A program made the translations under genes and the position numbers. A stretch of DNA of 19,016 bases, taken from Bdellovibrionales bacterium. Its GTDB lineage: Bacteria; Bdellovibrionota; UBA1018. Within the stretch, counting starts at the first letter, position 1. Every line of letters starts with the position of its first letter. Below are positions 3 to 19,016 of the stretch, piece after piece. The notes under the pieces were generated by a model. The model was given only the letters and a program-made list of their open reading frames with translations, ran no database searches and was not told the DNA's origin. The stretch is taken from NCBI GenBank assembly GCA_018968995.1, contig JAGWZD010000007.1:1-19016 (forward strand). The letters are read 5' to 3'.

Positions 3-182
3 CTAAAGACCAGTGCCGATGTCGTCAATCTAGTGAAGGCTATTTTGGCAAACCATCTAGCGCTTCATGAGTCGGACTTAGGCAAAGTGGGACGACAACT
101 GGAGCAAATCACAGGTTCAGACCCCTTCGGGGGAGAGATGAAGAAATATGTGGCTTTTCAGACCATCAAAAAAGTGGCTTAA
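3..182 (+). CDS. C-terminal end of an unidentified protein (partial, cut by window start)
   Basis: Reading frame 3 is open from the window edge to a TAA at 180-182, giving 59 C-terminal residues; the other two forward frames hit stops early. The visible part is charged and helix-like (for example DVVNLVKAILANHLALHESD) and ends in TIKKVA. I do not recognise a family from this tail. Its last 35 bases overlap the start of the following lipoprotein gene, which suggests the two are co-transcribed and translationally coupled. It could instead be a chance open frame, but the amino-acid composition looks coding. Confidence 0.55.
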   Translation, partial: LKTSADVVNLVKAILANHLALHESDLGKVGRQLEQITGSDPFGGEMKKYVAFQTIKKVA

Positions 183-1842
183 ATGCCTTGTTCTTTGCCT
201 GTTGGTCGGGTGCCGGGCCGTCGACCCAGAGTTTCGGGCGATGACGGTCGACCCGGAGTCGCCGGAGAAGATTGAGGCTGACATACGGGCTATTGAGTCT
301 TTTGAAAACCGTTCACTAGCGGCATTTCAGTACTCAGCTTACCCAGTTTTAAGAAAGAACTGCGCGTCCTGCCACAATTCAAATAGTTCAAGTGCGGCTA
401 AAGCAGTACCGCATTCTGATGAAATGGCCGAGATTTCACAAAATACGCTTCTTGAGTTTCGTCTGGTCAGTTTTTCAGATTTGTCACAGTCTCGAATCTT
501 GAAGGTTCTAGAAAAAGACCAGCATCGCGCCATGTCTTTACATGAAATTCGTGGACTCGCCGATGCCCTATCGAAAGCACTTCAGAAATGGAACGATTTG
601 CGAGGGCCGGTTCCAGTTCTTTCAGAAGAGGATCAAATTCGATCGATCCCAGACTTTGATTTAAGGGATAAAGCGGCGTTTCGATCGAAACTTCATCCGA
701 TCATGGTTGAAAGCTGTGGCAGCTGTCACCAAAGCAATGGCATTACAAATGCCAGAAATATCCCTCACTCTGATCCTGCTGTGGACACTTCTTTTCAAAC
801 TCTCGAGCTGCGCTCTCTGGTGAATTATAAATATCCCGAACTTTCTCGGATTTTGTCGGTGTTTAACCCTGGCAACCACAATAGTGCGACTATTCCCAAC
901 CCCGAGGTTGCCAAGGAAAAAATCAGGGCCGGAGTATCCGCCTGGATCGATCTTCGAGGAGACGATCCCGATCAAGAACAGACCACCGCCGAGATTCTGC
1001 TTCCCCGAATTGAACCCCAAAGTGGCTCAGGCGCGGGTCTGTCTGACCGGAACTCAGCGGGCCAGCTGGTTTCTGTGAGTCGTAAGACGGTGGTGGTGCC
1101 GCTGGGTAATTTATTTGAGCCGAAAATTACGGATCCTGCTCGATCACCTGAGCTTCGTTTCGAGGTGATTCGCTCAGGGGCAGAGTTTTATCAGGTAGAG
1201 AACTTATCGTTTCGTAATCCGGCAGGCAACATCCCTCTTTCCTTGAATAGCGTGCGGGTTTATCTCAATGGTCAAAAGGTAAGCACAGCGAGTGGGTTTG
1301 CTTCGATTAAGCAGGTGGTCACCTCGCCTGCGTTTACCCCAGTGACTGCAGAGAGTCGGTCTGTTTTTCTCGAGTCAAGGTGCAAGGATGACACGGATTT
1401 AAACGACGCCGCGAGTCGTTGTTCAGATTCGATAAGCTTTAGTTTTGGGTGGATTGGATTTGAATCGCCCGACAGGCCTGAGTTTGTCCGGTTGAAACAG
1501 TTTATCCGAGAGCAGTGTTCAAGCTGCCACACCGGCGTTAGTCGCCCGACAACCTATTCCTTTTTGTCAGGGGGCGACTACAGAAGTGGCTCGCTTCCAG
1601 ATTTTGCATCCGCCGCAATGGAGAGCATGTCAGAGGCACAGTACATTGCGAGTCTCGGTCTTTCAGCGCGGCCCTATTTTTTGACCATCAATGATCCAGA
1701 GAAGTCGATTCTCTCGCAGGTGCTGCAATCCACGCCGGCGCCTTTGGTTTCTCAGATGCCAAAAGGGGTGAGCTGGACAGACGAGCAGCGAAGACAAAAT
1801 CGTCAGATCATCGATGACTGGATTCTAACGATACCCCGATAA
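148..1842 (+). CDS. Exported lipoprotein with three cytochrome c-like CxxCH domains
   Basis: A 564-residue predicted lipoprotein. The N-terminus is basic then hydrophobic and ends in a lipobox LLVGC (Cys22 would be lipidated). Three c-type heme attachment motifs are present: CASCH at 72-76, CGSCH at 190-194 and CSSCH at 457-461. The first two lie in homologous repeats of about 95 residues (about 58-153 and 176-271) that share AAF, CxSCH, PHSD, SRIL and a closing DLRG. The third copy is diverged; it has an MPKG segment near residue 540 that could supply the distal Met ligand, as in planctomycete- and myxobacteria-type cytochromes. Residues about 300-440 form a separate linker domain of beta character. 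ATG148 is the first possible start, because an in-frame TGA lies at 139-141; GGGGGAGAG about 10 bases upstream is the ribosome site. Heme binding is inferred from motifs. An envelope electron-transfer or redox role fits; the partner is unknown. Confidence 0.85.
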   Translation: MWLFRPSKKWLKCLVLCLLVGCRAVDPEFRAMTVDPESPEKIEADIRAIESFENRSLAAFQYSAYPVLRKNCASCHNSNSSSAAKAVPHSDEMAEISQNTLLEFRLVSFSDLSQSRILKVLEKDQHRAMSLHEIRGLADALSKALQKWNDLRGPVPVLSEEDQIRSIPDFDLRDKAAFRSKLHPIMVESCGSCHQSNGITNARNIPHSDPAVDTSFQTLELRSLVNYKYPELSRILSVFNPGNHNSATIPNPEVAKEKIRAGVSAWIDLRGDDPDQEQTTAEILLPRIEPQSGSGAGLSDRNSAGQLVSVSRKTVVVPLGNLFEPKITDPARSPELRFEVIRSGAEFYQVENLSFRNPAGNIPLSLNSVRVYLNGQKVSTASGFASIKQVVTSPAFTPVTAESRSVFLESRCKDDTDLNDAASRCSDSISFSFGWIGFESPDRPEFVRLKQFIREQCSSCHTGVSRPTTYSFLSGGDYRSGSLPDFASAAMESMSEAQYIASLGLSARPYFLTINDPEKSILSQVLQSTPAPLVSQMPKGVSWTDEQRRQNRQIIDDWILTIPR

Positions 1843-1843
1843 C

Positions 1844-2497
1844 TCAATGAGTAGAGAGGGTCCAGCCAACGCTCCAAAAAAGATTTTCGGTAGACTGAAG
1901 AAAACCCATCTCGACATTTGCACCAGAAACAGATTCGCGAAGATGCATTCCCAGGGTGACCCCCGAGATGAGTCGAGACTTGTTCTGAATTTGGTAGGGA
2001 TCTGAAGGTGTCCCGCTGTCTTTCCAATTAGCAACTCGGAAAAGAAGGGGCACCGAAAGAGAGAGGCTACTCGATTGCGAGGGTCTTGACCAGTGAATCC
2101 CTGGGGTCAGCATCGCGCCGAATGCGGTGCTATCTTTGGATAAATAATTGACCCCGCTCAAGGCAGAGGAATCCCTTGCAGATGGTGCGACCTGGCTGAA
2201 ACTCATCAGCACAGAAGAGCGTAATCTGGCAGACCAGGGATCGCGCGAGGCAAATAGAAAATCATAGGAAACGCCCCAGCCGCTTTGATTTGCTTTCAGA
2301 GGGAAAGCTTTTTGATCATTCGTTCGTACTAAAGAGATCGCCTCTTGCCAGTGAAGATATGAAAGACCCCATTTGGTCGATAGAGGGGGAGAGTCGCTCT
2401 GATCTTCAGTGACCAATGCAGACCCGTCGGCCAGTACGGTTTTTGTCCATGCACAAAGACTAATGCTGATGAATAAAAGCCTGAAGATTAAAGCCAT
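1844..2497 (-). CDS. Exported hypothetical protein, probable small outer-membrane barrel
   Basis: A 217-residue protein with a typical signal peptide (hydrophobic core about 4-16, likely cleavage after VLA at 21-23). The mature part alternates polar and hydrophobic residues and is rich in Ser, Gly and Trp, as in small beta-barrel proteins. It contains stretches such as WGLSYLHW and LSLSVPLLFRVANW, and no catalytic motif that I recognise. Its ATG lies 10 bases inside the 3' end of the upstream heme-barrel gene, so the two are almost certainly one operon with coupled translation, and the proteins probably act together at the outer membrane. It converges on the three-heme lipoprotein gene with one base between the two stop codons. 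Function unknown. Confidence 0.75.
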   Translation of the reverse strand: MALIFRLLFISISLCAWTKTVLADGSALVTEDQSDSPPLSTKWGLSYLHWQEAISLVRTNDQKAFPLKANQSGWGVSYDFLFASRDPWSARLRSSVLMSFSQVAPSARDSSALSGVNYLSKDSTAFGAMLTPGIHWSRPSQSSSLSLSVPLLFRVANWKDSGTPSDPYQIQNKSRLISGVTLGMHLRESVSGANVEMGFLQSTENLFWSVGWTLSTH

Positions 2498-3729
2498 AGG
2501 TGTACCTGAGACTGTAGGGTGAAGGTATCAGCAGATAGCAAATCATCACCTCGAGAGTGAGTTCCAAGGATATCAAACCGAAGTTCTAGGCGTTGCATGG
2601 GAAGGTACTGGATTGACGGGCCCGCGCGGAACAGCCTGGTTTTTTTCACTGTCCAGTCTGACGTGTAGGCCTCGGTGGTCATCATCAAATTCAGTCCTCG
2701 AGACAACTCTGTGAAAAACTGTCCGAACCAATATCCCCCAACGGCTGGAGCGCTAGAGATAAAGTCTTCTCTAATGACACCCAGTTGTGCGAGAAGGGCA
2801 GAGTTTCCGGGAAATCCCCATCTCAGATGGGTGGCGGCCAGGTGACGGTCGCGATAATTATTAGATCCGACAAAGCCCGATGCCCCTAGTCTGAGGGTTT
2901 TCGTGAATTCGTGCTCGCCAGAGATGGAAACTCCTTTTTGCCGAAGATCAGAAGATTGATAAAGATTTCCTGTAAGCACGTGTAAATATAGATCGGATTC
3001 AGTTGTCGAATAGTGCATCAGAAGTCCATGAGACTGATCGTTCTGATTAAAAAGAGTTTTCGAGCGAAGGTAAGCCGTGTGATCTGGAACCTTTAATCCG
3101 AAAACGGTGTCCATCATACCCAGGTACATTCCTAGGTGCTTACTCGCTCGTACGCCGAGGTAGTGTTCTCGAGAGATCCAGCTTTGCGCGGCTTTTTTCT
3201 GAGACTGAGAAACATTCGATGGTGCTGGAATGTAGCCGAAGCGACCCACGGCAATGAGTCGCTCTTTTGGGGATTTTATAGTGACCCCCATATCTGCCTG
3301 CATCGTGATCCAGCGAGAAATAGAGTTTGAGGACCCTAAGTTCTGAGAATAATGCATGCCACGATAGGTGAGGTTCGGTCGAAGCCAGCCCGGAAGGGGT
3401 TCACGCCCCAGAAATCCTGAGTGTTGCGCGAGGGTCTCATCGATTTCCTCAGAAGACTGATTTTCCGCTTTTAGATAAAATGGCCGCGCTGAAAAGATAG
3501 TGGCCGCGAGTGCTCTGCCATAATCGGATAAGGCTCCGCCGCCAGCAGGATGATAGTGGCAGGTCTGACAAGCGCCATAGCCTAAACCAATCGATTGAGG
3601 GAAGGCGCGAGCCTGTGTTCCGAGAGGAAGCTGGGCCAAAAAAAAGAAAAAGAGGATTAAACTGAAGCGCTTCGAGCTCACCCGCGGTTCATACCCCATT
3701 TTTAGATGATTTGGGATAGCCGCGTTCAC
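2488..3729 (-). CDS. Exported protein with one N-terminal CxxCH heme motif joined to a beta-barrel domain
   Basis: A 413-residue protein. A signal peptide (core about 22-37, followed by Thr-Gln-Ala-Arg-Ala) precedes a single heme-type motif CQTCH at 54-58. It sits in the context GACQTCHYHPAGGGALSDYG, a pattern seen in deltaproteobacterial exported proteins. The remaining 330 or so residues look like an outer-membrane barrel: alternating patterns, many Tyr/Trp/Gly, and a C-terminus ending VHLWL. The start is not certain: the longest form uses GTG at 3727-3729 with GGCGGAG about 12 bases upstream, while an ATG at 3697-3699 would shorten it by 10 residues and has no ribosome site. It is the first gene of a two-gene operon. 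The likely role is a porin-like protein with a periplasmic heme that passes electrons or senses redox state; this is inference. Confidence 0.78.
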   Translation of the reverse strand: MNAAIPNHLKMGYEPRVSSKRFSLILFFFFLAQLPLGTQARAFPQSIGLGYGACQTCHYHPAGGGALSDYGRALAATIFSARPFYLKAENQSSEEIDETLAQHSGFLGREPLPGWLRPNLTYRGMHYSQNLGSSNSISRWITMQADMGVTIKSPKERLIAVGRFGYIPAPSNVSQSQKKAAQSWISREHYLGVRASKHLGMYLGMMDTVFGLKVPDHTAYLRSKTLFNQNDQSHGLLMHYSTTESDLYLHVLTGNLYQSSDLRQKGVSISGEHEFTKTLRLGASGFVGSNNYRDRHLAATHLRWGFPGNSALLAQLGVIREDFISSAPAVGGYWFGQFFTELSRGLNLMMTTEAYTSDWTVKKTRLFRAGPSIQYLPMQRLELRFDILGTHSRGDDLLSADTFTLQSQVHLWL

Positions 3730-9782: not shown

Positions 9783-10886
9783 TCATTTACACGCCCCAGA
9801 ACTCCTCAGCTTTTCGAGTTCGGGATCCCGCAAGCTTGTTTGGCCGAGCTTTTTTCGAATAGCAACTCGAAGTTCGCGAACCGAGCAGTTCTTCGGTTGA
9901 ATCACGAGCGCCTTATCTAGATCCAGAAGCGCGTCTTTTTCGCGATTTGTCTCAGCAAGTAGAGCCGCACGTCTTTGGTAAGCTAGTAGCGATACAGGGT
10001 TTGACTCAATCGCCCGGCCATAGTGCTCAAGCGCTAGGGTGAAATCCTTTTTGCTTTGATAATAGGCGGCCAAATTGAGTGCTGTCGCGTAGTGTGTAGG
10101 GTTTTCTTGCGCGGCCCTCTTCAGTAGAGAGAGCACCTCTTCACTGCCTGCCCCCAATTGTGATTTTACAGCAGCGAGGTTTGAATACGCTTCGGCAAAC
10201 TTAGGCGATTTTTGCGTCGACTTTTCGTAAAAAAGTGCTGCTAACTCTAGCTGACGGGATGCCGCACTCACAAACCCTAAACCAAGGTAAAGGCTTGCGC
10301 CGAGCTCTGAGGCGCTACGTAATGAAGCCAAATAATTTTGGTTTTCGATCGCCGGTTTTGGAATCGCCAGGTTTTCAATGTAATATGTGTCCGACGTGAC
10401 GGCGCCATTTTTTAGGGTTTCGATGTTTAAGCAGCGACCTTCCTTACAGATACGAACAAATACGTGATCTGGAGCTCGTACTAATGCAGCGTCGATACCC
10501 GTTCGTTCTGCGGCGAGCAGGTAGAGCGTGGAAACCCCCAGACAGTGCCCCTTTCGCGTGGAGAGAACGCTGTCGGGTAGCACGTTGTCCCTTTGCTTTC
10601 TGGACTGATAACTGTTGTCAGGCTGAATTTTCCAGGTCTGAAACACATAGCTTGATAAACCCGTCGATATTTCTTCTAAGGATGTGGCCTCGCGAAATTG
10701 CGGCGCCCCATCGATGAATTTCTTTAGCTGCCTTAGATCGGGTTTTGGTCGAACCTCGGAAATAATTGTTTCGACTTCCGTTCGTAGGGGGTGCCGTTCG
10801 AGCGACCTTGGCCCGTCTCCGCCCTGTGCGACAGCGAATAAGGGTGGCGCAAAAATCATCAGACAGTACAGATACTTAAGCCACAT
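9783..10886 (-). CDS. Exported SirB1-like transglutaminase-fold protein with C-terminal TPR repeats
   Basis: A 367-residue protein with a signal peptide (MWLKYLYCLMIFAPPLFAVA). Residues about 75-160 match the SirB1/transglutaminase-core type: RKGHCLGVSTLYLLAAERTG gives candidate nucleophile Cys115, APDHVFVRI gives His141, and LNIET (153-157) offers the third residue. About four TPR-like helix pairs follow from about 195 to 335 (for example AALFYEKSTQKSPKFAEAYS and ALEHYGRAIESNPVSLLAYQ). SirB1-type proteins pair this fold with TPRs, normally in the cytoplasm; here it is exported, so a periplasmic peptidase or transglutaminase-like scaffold is likely. The start is taken as ATG 10884-10886; a TTG 27 bases upstream (10911-10913) would also leave a workable signal peptide. 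The gene is divergent from the kinase at 10947, with a 60-base shared promoter region. Confidence 0.82.
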   Translation of the reverse strand: MWLKYLYCLMIFAPPLFAVAQGGDGPRSLERHPLRTEVETIISEVRPKPDLRQLKKFIDGAPQFREATSLEEISTGLSSYVFQTWKIQPDNSYQSRKQRDNVLPDSVLSTRKGHCLGVSTLYLLAAERTGIDAALVRAPDHVFVRICKEGRCLNIETLKNGAVTSDTYYIENLAIPKPAIENQNYLASLRSASELGASLYLGLGFVSAASRQLELAALFYEKSTQKSPKFAEAYSNLAAVKSQLGAGSEEVLSLLKRAAQENPTHYATALNLAAYYQSKKDFTLALEHYGRAIESNPVSLLAYQRRAALLAETNREKDALLDLDKALVIQPKNCSVRELRVAIRKKLGQTSLRDPELEKLRSSGACK

Positions 10887-10946
10887 CGGGCGACCGTGTA
10901 ACTTTCTCGACAAAAATAGTCAAGATTATGATAGTGCTCTGCCGCG

Positions 10947-12230
10947 ATGGGTCCAAATCCGAGGTTCGACGGCATTAGTGAATCGGCTTCCTCCGCCCGG
11001 GCGCAACGGCCCCCAGAGGATGCGGAGATTACCCAGGCTCAATTTACTCAAATGATGGAGGACCCGTTTTCGTTTTTCATCACCCAGCAGCTCACCGTTG
11101 GTAATGTTCGATCACTTAAGCGGCTGTGCACAGAAGTCGTACCCCAGCTAGAGTTGCGGGCCCGCCTCGAGAGTTATCTGGAAAGGATGCAGCAACTCGG
11201 CTTTCTCGCCATGAACGGCGATGAAATTATCGTTAATAAAATGGGCTTCCGATTCAAGCTCGATAGACGTGCCCAGGGCCGACTGTTCCCCGCATTATTT
11301 GAAATTTCCACCAATGCGGCAATTCGCGCTGTAGAGCAAGCCGGGACGGCCCCAATTCTGTTTTTGATCTCTGAGGACCCGATAACTTCAGGAGAGATTT
11401 CTAAAGCGGTAGAAAACTTTCGTGCCGAAATGCGAGTGATCGGGGAACGAGTGAAAACTCGCGATCCTCGTGGGGTTCGGGCGATAGGCATATTTAACAC
11501 TCCGATGCTCTCTGAGGACTTTGTAGCTGCGCCAGAATCCCTAGCGACTCAAACATCTTGTTCACCTGGAACTGTCGAGAGACGCTTAAGTGAGGTAGCT
11601 CAGGCGGCTCATGATATGGCGCCCGCCATACAGTCTCTTGAACTGATTGCGGGCGAAGCACGTGAGAAGCTAGACCCAGAGATCCTTCAGCTTCTTGAAT
11701 TAACCACCGAAAGAATCAGAAAAACCTATCAACACCTCCTTCCCAAAGGACGAAGAAAGGGGGAGGACGGCCTTGCCAACGGCGTTTACTGTGCGTTGGC
11801 TGCGTACAGAGAGGCCTCGAAAATCAAGCCGCACAGGATCAGTGTCGAATACGAGGGGCCGGCAGAGAGCTCGGCAACCTTGCAATTAGCGAATTCGGAG
11901 TTGACCCGGGCGATCGGAAACCTTCTAAAAAATGCAATCGAAGCATCGGATACAAAAGTGGATGGCCGCGTCCTTCTCTCTCTACAGGAAAGCGAAGACC
12001 TGATTCAGATTACCGTTCAAGATAACGGGCCAGGCTTTGATCCAGAGGTTTTAAATGAGATTCAGCGGGAGCGCTGGACGACCACAAAACTGAATGGGAG
12101 TGGCATCGGTATTCGACAGGCCACTGAGGCAACTCAGAAGGCAGGAGGTGATCTTCTTATCGAATCTACTCCGGGCCACGGGACCACGATTCGGGTTCGG
12201 CTACCCGTTTTACGAATAAAGCCCTCGTGA
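10947..12230 (+). CDS. Orphan soluble histidine kinase with N-terminal DUF4423/TIGR02147-like domain
   Basis: A 427-residue cytoplasmic protein without membrane segments. Residues about 30-190 follow the layout of the TIGR02147/DUF4423 family: a winged-helix-like start (RLESYLERMQQLGFLAMNGD at about 73-92), then FPALFEISTNAAIRAVE, the SEDPITSGEISKAVENFRAE block and a GIFNTPML close. A dimerisation/phosphoacceptor helix pair follows with AHDMAPAIQSLE (221-232); His222 is the candidate phosphorylation site. The ATPase domain has an N box (Asn325/Asn329 in GNLLKNAIEAS), G1 box DNGPGF (359-364) and G2 box GSGIGI (384-389). No response regulator lies adjacent. The ligand for the input domain is unknown. 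ATG10947 has no good ribosome site; M36 or M37 are alternatives. It may regulate, or be regulated with, the divergent transglutaminase-fold gene. Confidence 0.85.
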   Translation: MGPNPRFDGISESASSARAQRPPEDAEITQAQFTQMMEDPFSFFITQQLTVGNVRSLKRLCTEVVPQLELRARLESYLERMQQLGFLAMNGDEIIVNKMGFRFKLDRRAQGRLFPALFEISTNAAIRAVEQAGTAPILFLISEDPITSGEISKAVENFRAEMRVIGERVKTRDPRGVRAIGIFNTPMLSEDFVAAPESLATQTSCSPGTVERRLSEVAQAAHDMAPAIQSLELIAGEAREKLDPEILQLLELTTERIRKTYQHLLPKGRRKGEDGLANGVYCALAAYREASKIKPHRISVEYEGPAESSATLQLANSELTRAIGNLLKNAIEASDTKVDGRVLLSLQESEDLIQITVQDNGPGFDPEVLNEIQRERWTTTKLNGSGIGIRQATEATQKAGGDLLIESTPGHGTTIRVRLPVLRIKPS

Positions 12231-12333: not shown

Positions 12334-13107
12334 TCAATCACTCTTGCGCGTGATGAACAAAAAACTGTCGAACGTTTCCCAGAGCCCGCCTTTGAACTTT
12401 CCATGAACCGCGGTCTTGAGTGCTGCTCGGAACTGAAGATTCTCTTCATCAGTTGAACCGTCAGGTGTTTCGCGTGGAGAGCCGATCATCAACGTAGCCC
12501 AGTCCTCAAAAGCATACCGAAACCTCGACGAGTACCTCCAAAGCCGAGCCTTCTGAAACCCCGCCCCCTGTAGGAGTTCGTCAGAAACAGTTCTTACCAG
12601 TTGATCCGTCATGTCCCGCACCCGCAGATTTGGAATGCACCTCTTGGCAATCCGACGTAGCGGTGTTTTCGGATGCGGATATTTCCAGAGCAAGGCCAAA
12701 ATCCCGCCCGGCCTTAAGACTCGGTGAAACTCCTGCAACGACTTTTGATGATCAAACCAATGAAAGGCCTGAGCGACGGTAATGAGGTCAAATTTCCTCG
12801 CCGAAAACGGAAGGCCCTCCGCCCCAGAAATTTTAAATTGAATCTGATCGGATGGCTTGAGCTCGGAATTCAGAGACCGCGCCACCCGAATTCGCTGAAG
12901 ATTACTGTCGACGCCGTAGGACTGCTCGAAGTGTTTGGCTAGCTCGAAGGCCAGAATGCCCGTGCCCGTTCCGACATCCAGGAATGCCTGCCGCCGCTCG
13001 CAGGAGTGGACGATTTTTCGAATGACCGCGGGAGGATAACTTTTTCGAATTCGATTGTAGTCGTGCGACCTGTCGTGGGGGCTTTGGGGTCGGGTTCTTA
13101 AAGTCAT
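12334..13107 (-). CDS. Class I SAM-dependent methyltransferase (Methyltransf_11 type)
   Basis: A 257-residue enzyme with the standard SAM fold. Motif I is FLDVGTGTG at 42-50; GVD at 65-67 ends strand 2. A GLPF then FDLITVAQAFHWFD segment (98-119) is motif IV/post-IV of the Methyltransf_11 group, and LRPGGILALLW follows at 131-141. This composition resembles small-molecule or tRNA/ubiquinone-type methyltransferases; the substrate cannot be told. The start is ATG 13105-13107, set by a strong AGGAG (13116-13120 on +) eight bases upstream; longer forms would run into the upstream gene. It follows the metallopeptidase gene by 22 bases on the same strand, so an operon is likely. Confidence 0.9.
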   Translation of the reverse strand: MTLRTRPQSPHDRSHDYNRIRKSYPPAVIRKIVHSCERRQAFLDVGTGTGILAFELAKHFEQSYGVDSNLQRIRVARSLNSELKPSDQIQFKISGAEGLPFSARKFDLITVAQAFHWFDHQKSLQEFHRVLRPGGILALLWKYPHPKTPLRRIAKRCIPNLRVRDMTDQLVRTVSDELLQGAGFQKARLWRYSSRFRYAFEDWATLMIGSPRETPDGSTDEENLQFRAALKTAVHGKFKGGLWETFDSFLFITRKSD

Positions 13108-13129
13108 GAGAGGTTCTCCTAAGCTACCA

Positions 13130-14506
13130 TCAACTCTTACGATCATCGACACTTCGCTCGCCCAGAAAAAACTGAAGGGTCCCCTCTCGGTCATTCGCTA
13201 GGGTGTCCCTGCTTTCTTGAATCGAGGCCAAAGCGTAGTCGAGTTGTTCGGCGTAAGTCTCAGGATCGGGCTGCGTGAGCTTTCTTCGCAAAAAATCGTG
13301 CGGCCTACGATTGGTGATTCGTTCAGCGGCATCGAAGACAGATTCGATCGAATCGTAAGGAGAATCCTCGAGGCGCTTCTGCTCCAACATCTGGCGAAAA
13401 ACATCAACTAGGCCAATGCCGGATTCAGATCGAAGTGCGCAATCGAACAAAAACCAATCCATCAGCATGCTGGGCTTTTTTTGCAGAGCTTTCTGATAGA
13501 GCGTTTCGACCCAGGTCCTTAACCGAAATGGATAAGACTCCTGAAAAAGTAGACGCGTTGCCGGATTAAAATAGATATTCAGCACCTCGCCAATGCGAAA
13601 TCGATCCGCCTTGGGGCAGTCGCCTGAAGCATACAGGAGGCTCTTGAATCTCGCCGGGCCAGCCGAAGTGAACGCGTGCCCAATTTCATGGTGGAGCCCG
13701 TACAAAACGAAGTCGAGATAATCGGAATGACCTAGGGGGCCATAGTTCTCGACCTCGTCAGATCCAAAAATGGCAATTCCACCCGTGTAATTTTGGCCAG
13801 CAGCCATGGTCTGTCCCTGGGTTAAAGCCTTAAAACCGCGCGGTGCCTGAAGGTAGAGGATGCTAAGATCTCTGATCTTTGGATTTCGCCCAAAGCACTT
13901 TTCTTGAAATTCGATCGAGCTTTGACAGAACTCAAAGATCTCCTGAGGCGCGAGAGGAGGTTGAACACCATGTCCTAGCGCAACCCTAAAACGTCCGCAC
14001 TTTGAGTGAAAGATTTGCAGATCGCTACTGAGGTGAACAAAAACCTGGGCAATCTGCTGGGTAGGAACAATCGCGCCAGCTGAATTCACCGGAAGGTTCG
14101 AAATGATGGACCAACCATCAGGGATCCCCTCAAAACGCACCTGGTAATGTAATGGCGCTGAGCTTTTCTCGTAATCTCTGATCACTGGAAGCACGCCAGA
14201 GCCAAAGTGAATTTCGTGACCGTTGAAGAACGGATAGTGTACCGCTAGATCTACATTTGCCCCAACCAGGACGGAATACGGACTGGTGATTTCATAGGTG
14301 AGAAAAAAATTCCCCGGCGGGATATCTATTCTACCGTCTTCGGGTTGAATGGGGCGCCCATTCAGCGCCAGGTTGTGGATGAATTTTTCTGATTTCAAGA
14401 GTAGCGCTTCAATTTCAAAAGTGAGTATTTCGGACGCGCGTCCTTCGAGGCGAACCTGGATAGTCCGATTAAGTGCTTGCTGGTAGTGGATGACTAATTG
14501 ATGCAT
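13130..14506 (-). CDS. M61/M1-like zinc metallopeptidase with HEIGH motif
   Basis: A 458-residue protein without a signal peptide or membrane segment. The N-terminal 170 residues form a beta-rich domain like that of M61 and M1 peptidases. The catalytic signature is LHHEIGHAF, with HEIGH at 273-277 (two zinc His and the catalytic Glu274). Glu307 in RIGEVLN is the candidate third zinc ligand, 29 residues further on, a longer gap than in typical M1/M4 enzymes. The C-terminal helical region is about 140 residues. M61 enzymes act on small N-terminal residues; the specificity here is unknown. It lies directly upstream of the methyltransferase. An aminopeptidase is likely, but a non-M61 gluzincin cannot be ruled out. 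Confidence 0.78.
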   Translation of the reverse strand: MHQLVIHYQQALNRTIQVRLEGRASEILTFEIEALLLKSEKFIHNLALNGRPIQPEDGRIDIPPGNFFLTYEITSPYSVLVGANVDLAVHYPFFNGHEIHFGSGVLPVIRDYEKSSAPLHYQVRFEGIPDGWSIISNLPVNSAGAIVPTQQIAQVFVHLSSDLQIFHSKCGRFRVALGHGVQPPLAPQEIFEFCQSSIEFQEKCFGRNPKIRDLSILYLQAPRGFKALTQGQTMAAGQNYTGGIAIFGSDEVENYGPLGHSDYLDFVLYGLHHEIGHAFTSAGPARFKSLLYASGDCPKADRFRIGEVLNIYFNPATRLLFQESYPFRLRTWVETLYQKALQKKPSMLMDWFLFDCALRSESGIGLVDVFRQMLEQKRLEDSPYDSIESVFDAAERITNRRPHDFLRRKLTQPDPETYAEQLDYALASIQESRDTLANDREGTLQFFLGERSVDDRKS

Positions 14507-18229: not shown

Positions 18230-18380
18230 AAGCCAGAGTTTAGCACGGCCTTTTTCGAAATTGAGGGTCTTGGATGGAAGTCCAAGCGGTTCTAGTTTCT
18301 GTCAATCCAGTGACGACACACGCGGACTTTGGCAGGCGCTAAGTGCCAAGAACCAAATTCTGCCCAAAACAACGGATCAG

Positions 18381-19016
18381 ATGCTTTTTGCGGGGTCTGT
18401 TCAGCTGATGGGGGTTGGATTTTTTGGTTTCATTTTGAGCAACGTGGCGAGTGTGCTGGGTCGTCAAGATGCAGCGCGGGAAAATCACATGAATAATTTG
18501 GACCGAATCGAAACATTCATGAAAATGCACGACACCCCACGAGGACTTAGGAATGAGGTTCGCAACTACTACAATTATCCGTGGACTCGAAAGAAGGGGT
18601 ACTTAGATCGCTCTCTCTTGGACAACCTTCCTCCGAAAATTCAATCCGACCTTTTCCTTCACTTGAATCGATCGATTCTACAGAAAGTTCCGCTGCTACG
18701 AGGGGCATCTGAAGAACTGATTGAAGATCTGATGCGTGAACTGGAGCCTCGAGTGGGGGACCGCGGCGATGCTCTCTACTTTATTCAGTCAGGCCAGGTC
18801 GAAATCCTTGGCGCAGATCGCCAAAAAATCGCCACATTGAGCGAAGGCGACTTTTTCGGAGAAATGGCGCTGGTTTCAGATCGATCTCGACGAGCCGCGG
18901 CCAGGTCCGTCAGTTTTTGTGATCTTTATGTCCTTCATCGAGAGGCTTTTGAGCAGGTCATTTCGGCCTATCCCGAGTTTCGTGAGCATATCCATCAGGT
19001 GCCTAAAACTCGAGGC
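18381..19016 (+). CDS. Truncated cyclic-nucleotide-gated channel-like protein: S6, C-linker and cNMP-binding domain (partial at window end)
   Basis: An open frame runs off the window end; 212 codons are visible from ATG18381. The residues MLFAGSVQLMGVGFFGFILS form a membrane helix like S6 of potassium channels. A C-linker follows (MKMHDTPRGLRNEVRNYYNY, then LDNLPPKIQSDLFLHLNRSI, typical of CNG/KCNH/HCN channels), then a cyclic-nucleotide-binding domain with GDFFGEMALVSDRSRRAAARS, the phosphate-binding cassette. In the same frame, ILPKTTDQ just upstream also fits the residues between the pore and S6, but no voltage sensor and no intact TVGYGD filter exist before it: the opposite-strand amidohydrolase begins 150 bases away. 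A TTG at 18261 would allow a longer start. It is therefore probably a 5'-truncated remnant, or a frameshifted channel. Confidence 0.72.
   Translation, partial: MLFAGSVQLMGVGFFGFILSNVASVLGRQDAARENHMNNLDRIETFMKMHDTPRGLRNEVRNYYNYPWTRKKGYLDRSLLDNLPPKIQSDLFLHLNRSILQKVPLLRGASEELIEDLMRELEPRVGDRGDALYFIQSGQVEILGADRQKIATLSEGDFFGEMALVSDRSRRAAARSVSFCDLYVLHREAFEQVISAYPEFREHIHQVPKTRG

Follow-up and report, generated by a model that had tools for sequence, protein, structure and literature searches.

What might a cytoplasmic histidine kinase sense through an N-terminal module that no curated family model recognizes? The question is raised by one gene in a 19,016-nucleotide stretch (hereafter the window) of contig JAGWZD010000007.1 from a Bdellovibrionales bacterium (assembly GCA_018968995.1). 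This coding sequence, at 10947..12230 on the plus strand, starts with ATG and encodes a soluble histidine kinase of 427 residues (P0001), the N-terminal module of which appears related to the C-terminal half (C-half) of TIGR02147 (Fsuc_second)/DUF4423 (PF14394) regulators that are split over two genes. On balance, the protein probably acts as a histidine kinase in the cytoplasm, with an input module (residues 37-193) that descended from the C-half of such a split regulator and transmits partner binding to the DHp and CA domains. It is a new input-domain architecture on an ordinary kinase.

Neither a chance reading frame nor an assembly chimera accounts for the fusion, because the same architecture is present in three relatives on other contigs (P0002, P0003 and P0004, with identities of 64%, 61% and 39% at a query coverage of 87-95%); both are further ruled out by the window contig, which is consistent with the rest of its assembly. 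The DNA polymerase IV that it encodes shares 75% identity with the one in a same-genus genome and 53-57% with those of four other family genomes; two further family genomes have matches of 36-37%, and five family genomes of the sample have none at E<=1e-40.

Relationship of the N-terminal module to split TIGR02147 proteins

When the N-terminal profile was run against 368 genomes of the phylum, it retrieved four stand-alone proteins of 183-217 residues (E 3.5e-12 to 6.1e-6), in addition to 11 weaker matches (E 0.0016-0.0975) that were left outside the set. Upstream of each of the four, on the same strand, lies a gene encoding 190-230 residues. A profile of these four neighbors matches the N-terminal helix-turn-helix (HTH) part of TIGR02147 (hhalign prob 98.4, E 1e-14), and three of them match TIGR02147 singly at 16-31 bits, under its cut-off. 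We read the upstream gene and the stand-alone protein as the putative two halves, N-half and C-half, of a split TIGR02147 protein.

The set was enlarged to 13 split loci, eight found via the C-half, each of which has an N-half gene, and five via the N-half. Both halves are recognized by profile in 12 of the 13 loci, four of these by construction; in the thirteenth (L150), the C-half in the alignment is an adjacent open reading frame (ORF) of 196 residues, assigned by its position. The halves are same-strand neighbors in 11 loci, and in the other two (L149 and L154) they lie in opposite orientation with another gene between them. Two short matches of profile A4, a 161-residue frame in G001 and one with stops in G199, were kept outside the set. 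Profile A5, run against a protein collection, retrieved ten stand-alone C-halves of 194-204 residues, some of which are loci already in the set.

A hidden Markov model (HMM) of 19 stand-alone C-halves, built without the four fusions, matches residues 26-193 of the window protein with 58.8 bits, compared to 6.0 bits for the best of 2000 shuffles. Judged by these comparisons, residues 37-193 (11055..11525, plus strand; limits set from the alignment) are clearly homologous, over their full length, to the stand-alone C-halves (L082-L085, L149-L160 and P0082-P0091), the closest of which share with the window module an ED start and an R-x-x-G...EDFV end. They differ in context: the stand-alone C-halves have genes of their own, accompanied by an N-half gene at all 13 loci, whereas the window module is part of a kinase and the window genome (G000) has no N-half match at E<=1, the neighbors of the kinase gene being unrelated.

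A more remote homology extends to the DUF4423 part of TIGR02147. At the profile level, residues 37-193 align colinearly with its C-terminal winged-helix and alpha/beta part: the C-halves together with the fusions reach a prob of 88-90 in hhalign, colinear over positions 126-271 of 291, with a score of 47 (controls at most 15), and adding bridging proteins raises the prob to 93.2. The latter alignment (A7) combines five bridging proteins with 24 of 29 TIGR02147 proteins (L043, L060, L062, L063 and L065 left out). Across these comparisons at prob 88-93, E ranges from 3e-6 to 3e-7; without the fusions, the prob is 72 (E 3.4e-5) for the 19 C-halves and 55 (E 1.2e-4) for the ten closest. Profile A3 found 17 places in the 368 genomes at E<=0.01, comprising the window, its four building sequences, four new C-halves, five full-length TIGR02147 proteins matched in their C-terminal half, and three others (167 residues in G313, 37 residues with a stop in G332, and part of a 445-residue frame in G202). 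All five full-length proteins exceed the TIGR02147 cut-off of 50 bits, at 50.5 to 127.6 bits.

Direct tests of the single sequence do not recover this relationship. Scanned alone, residues 1-206 match no NCBIfam family at E<=10, and in Pfam they match a Death effector domain alone, below threshold (E 0.12). The window protein obtains -0.5 bits, no positive score, with an HMM built from 29 TIGR02147 proteins (fragment L047 excluded). It does not reach the NCBIfam cut-off of TIGR02147 or match DUF4423 at its gathering score of 30 bits, and the genome holds no DUF4423 match above that cut-off. The first four-sequence N-terminal profile gave a prob of 18 against TIGR02147 (P 0.0013), with a score of 27.4 compared to at most 18.6 in 60 controls.

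It is nonetheless very improbable that the module is an unrelated winged-helix and alpha/beta domain that resembles DUF4423 through convergence of common elements. Such an origin would agree with the lack of any single-sequence match to DUF4423 or TIGR02147 and with the prob of only 55-72 that stand-alone C-halves reach by themselves; it is opposed by a colinear match well above the controls, by the fact that five of the 12 independent genome matches are TIGR02147 proteins, and by a neighboring gene family that matches the N-terminal part of TIGR02147. The earlier note on this DNA had described what appears to be a TIGR02147 C-terminal domain joined to a kinase module, and proposed a profile match of the N-terminal half to DUF4423 or TIGR02147 as the check. 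The homology to the DUF4423 part stands, by way of the bridging family and at the level of profile-profile comparison; the match to curated models does not. Since the DUF4423 link appears only through that family, the nearest relative is the split version and not the usual protein of about 270 residues.

Predicted fold of the module

The module is predicted to comprise two parts. The first, a winged-helix-like part at residues 40-97 (11064..11237, plus strand), was mapped by alignment from the model of the relative P0082 (predicted local distance difference test score of 79), in which the corresponding winged helix resembles the repressors PerR, CzrA and BlaI. A lower-confidence model of the window protein itself has helices at residues 57-64 and 68-83 and a hairpin at 87-96. 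The second part, at residues 107-193 (11265..11525, plus strand), is a helix-strand-helix-strand unit, its helices taken from the models and its strands inferred from the sequence; the EDFV motif at its end is the end motif of the stand-alone C-halves. In the TIGR02147 profile, positions of about 15-70 correspond to an XRE-type HTH and those of about 127-187 to a MarR-like winged helix. No XRE-type HTH precedes the module in the window protein by alignment or HMM. Compared to TIGR02147 and DUF4423 proteins, the window protein thus lacks the N-terminal HTH, escapes the curated models, carries a kinase, and is 427 rather than about 270 residues long. Given the C-half homology and the colinear DUF4423 match, it may be described as the C-half of a split TIGR02147 protein joined to a kinase, without the XRE-type HTH half.

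The fold also admits a different input. The winged helix might bind DNA, so that the kinase, tethered to DNA, reports whether an operator is occupied or phosphorylates a regulator that is bound close by. The resemblance to PerR, CzrA and BlaI, and the profile match of the corresponding TIGR02147 region to MarR-type regulators, speak for such a DNA-reading role; against it, the window protein lacks the XRE-type HTH (the second DNA-binding-like part in TIGR02147), a winged helix can equally be an interaction domain, and no operator is known. We regard it as fairly unlikely.

Kinase core

HATPase_c matches residues 318-421 (Pfam, E 2.6e-19) with intact N, G1 and G2 boxes, and the ATP-binding (CA) domain spans residues 276-420 (11772..12206, plus strand), as judged from the Pfam match, the boxes and the model. 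Two predicted helices, at residues 207-238 and 244-264, form a DHp-like hairpin (residues 207-264; 11565..11738, plus strand). The first of them carries His222 (codon at 11610..11612, plus strand), the candidate phospho-acceptor, followed by Asp223; this pair is invariant in all four fusions (P0001-P0004). The HATPase_c match and the boxes agree with the assignment as a histidine kinase in the earlier note. Pfam does not call HisKA in the protein, and the DHp is a candidate from the invariant pair and the two predicted helices. As the note had observed, no membrane segment was detected, the highest 19-residue Kyte-Doolittle mean being 1.16.

The predicted DHp hairpin and the CA domain are shared with HDIRSPL-type kinases of the same phylum and with the solved ZraS, CckA, HK853 and CpxA. 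Most of the compared phylum kinases have an H-box of HDIRSPL or near it, whereas that of the four fusions (11610-11630 in the window) is HD[MIL][AR]P[AV], with PAI, PAL or PVL instead of SPL and one residue earlier. The fusions further differ from these kinases in their new N-terminal module and in having no receiver alongside. The best NCBIfam match of the kinase region (residues 222-420) is the XrtA/PEP-CTERM kinase PrsK (TIGR02916), at 80.5 bits; this is far under the 300-bit cut-off, and the N-terminal region of PrsK is unmatched.

We infer from these features that the kinase core is intact, with putative autophosphorylation on His222. The window H-box itself, with P at +4 and A at +5 from the histidine in place of S-P, would also suit a protein that does not work as a kinase in vivo, being instead a phosphatase, an allosteric ATPase, or an orphan decaying after loss of its partner gene, as would the uncalled HisKA and the lack of any partner, exported or receiver gene found alongside. 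We consider such an alternative improbable.

Kinase genes at split loci

At four of the 13 loci, the split pair has a kinase gene inside it or no more than 1.5 kb away. The kinase gene is divergent from the N-half in G302 and G239; in G236 a divergent kinase gene is accompanied by a second beyond the C-half, and in G240 the kinase gene lies between the halves. By contrast, the kinase HMM found none at 54 full-length TIGR02147 loci, whose flanks extended to 1.5 kb at most, or to about 2 kb in a few cases, giving a Fisher p of 9e-4, or 0.005 with G239 and G240 merged. These 54 loci are a sample among the matches listed (L036-L065 without L047, L112, L113, L115-L117 and L129-L148), in which L050 and L144 are the same gene. 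The four nearest kinases are 228-351 residues long and have the same general H-box type as many phylum kinases. This distribution suggests that C-half and kinase may work together, and lends indirect support to the proposal, made in the earlier note, that DUF4423 is a signaling module.

Two considerations count on the other side. Contig ends cut the flanks in several loci and the genomes are related, which limits the reading of the kinase-neighbor count. In addition, the idea that the fused kinase is the neighbor kinase was considered and is unsupported by the tree, in which the kinases of G302 and G236 form one pair and those of G239 and G240 another, both apart from the fusions.

By eye, apparent type IV secretion or conjugation genes adjoin several split pairs (L150, L153, L155 and L157), which suggests mobile elements there.

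Exported ORFs following TIGR02147 genes

At 36 of the 54 full-length loci, an ORF with a signal-peptide-like start, by a simple hydropathy rule, begins at or near the TIGR02147 stop, compared to 10 of 50 on the divergent side by the same test. Among 35 distinct following ORFs, 21 overlap by four bases and 20 have GN[GPA] (VGNGG, TGNP) in their first 80 residues (shuffle mean 2.7, maximum 10). One class of exported proteins thus seems to have TIGR02147 as its partner or regulator in the cytoplasm. Likewise, at the split pairs (L149, L150, L152-L160 and L084), a small exported ORF lies at -30 to +1 after the C-half gene in 10 of 12 testable cases; the ORF at L153 falls narrowly short of the threshold, none follows at L160, and L151 ends too soon. 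After the window kinase gene there is no coupled or small exported ORF on the 3' side.

Proposed mechanism

We propose that the module of the window protein would keep the partner-binding or dimerizing role of the C-half, and we infer that it transmits a signal. The partner might be a TIGR02147-type regulator, an HTH half, a ligand or DNA; its binding would set the DHp-CA conformation, upon which the kinase would autophosphorylate His222 and the phosphate could pass to a response regulator from another locus. Relatives might achieve this coupling in trans, through a separate kinase gene beside the split pair. A protein partner is favored on two grounds: the XRE-type HTH is missing from the module, and all 13 loci of stand-alone C-halves have an N-half gene as well.

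A broader scheme can be offered only tentatively, and we hold it to be possible but doubtful: split TIGR02147 pairs would be three-part cassettes of HTH half, DUF4423 half and soluble histidine kinase, which place a two-component phosphorelay over a regulator class that otherwise has none and whose genes are coupled in translation to those of small exported proteins. In the fused form, represented by the window gene, the DUF4423 half would convey directly to the kinase what state a partner regulator, or the pathway of the exported protein, is in.

TIGR02147/DUF4423 proteins are numerous in this lineage yet little studied, and the kinase fusion, together with kinases at some split loci, offers a functional lead. 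On this lead, the C-terminal half would be a module for interaction or sensing, tied to phosphosignaling, and the split separates the family into two testable units.

Distribution and literature

The fusions found number only four, each on a single contig. When residues 36-206 were searched against about 5.8 billion proteins, with candidates confined to those that share short words (568 scored), only these four came back, and reading by eye six long frames with a TIGR02147 match (761, 510, 411, 382, 380 and 346 residues) revealed no other kinase fusion. Further DUF4423-HATPase fusions, a prospect raised by the earlier note, were thus absent from the 568 candidates, the six frames and the 54 loci.

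Among the matches listed at E<=0.01, TIGR02147 occurs in 40 of 55 genomes of the order, with up to 33 matches in one genome, and in the window genome not at all. This abundance fits an assignment of the phylum to Bdellovibrionota. As that assembly is 87% complete, the absence of both TIGR02147 and the N-half is tentative.

In the literature searched, no paper names TIGR02147 or Fsuc_second. DUF4423 is named in one paper, a table of which has Bd3700 among upregulated Bdellovibrio proteins (PMC12546842). Broader searches, judged by titles, gave nothing on such a fusion.

Genomic context of the window gene

The kinase gene is flanked by a divergent gene for a protein with transglutaminase-like and TPR domains (9783..10913, minus strand), outside the system, and by a convergent methyltransferase gene (12334..13194, minus strand). 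The divergent neighbor has no match at E<=1e-15 in four genomes searched. The window holds 32 listed ORFs of at least 80 residues, many overlapping; in the 19 besides the kinase that were scanned with Pfam there is no receiver domain, in agreement with the earlier observation of no adjacent response regulator, and a partner may be encoded at a distance. Same-genus genomes provided no usable site for an empty-site comparison, the contig with DNA polymerase IV there being only 5 kb.

Elsewhere in the window, a 458-residue protein at 13130-14506 (minus strand) has no Pfam or NCBIfam match and no relative at E<=1e-10 in 33 other family genomes. An ORF at 18261-19016 (plus strand), cut by the window end, encodes a cyclic-nucleotide-binding domain, apparently preceded, by eye, by the last pore helix and C-linker of a cyclic-nucleotide-gated channel; the frame leaves little room for the remaining membrane helices, perhaps indicating a truncated channel. 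At 148-3729, a protein shows weak multihaem cytochrome matches at 148-1842, beside which lie two opposite-strand, probably exported proteins that match no family; a CxxCH motif (CQTCH) occurs in one of the two.
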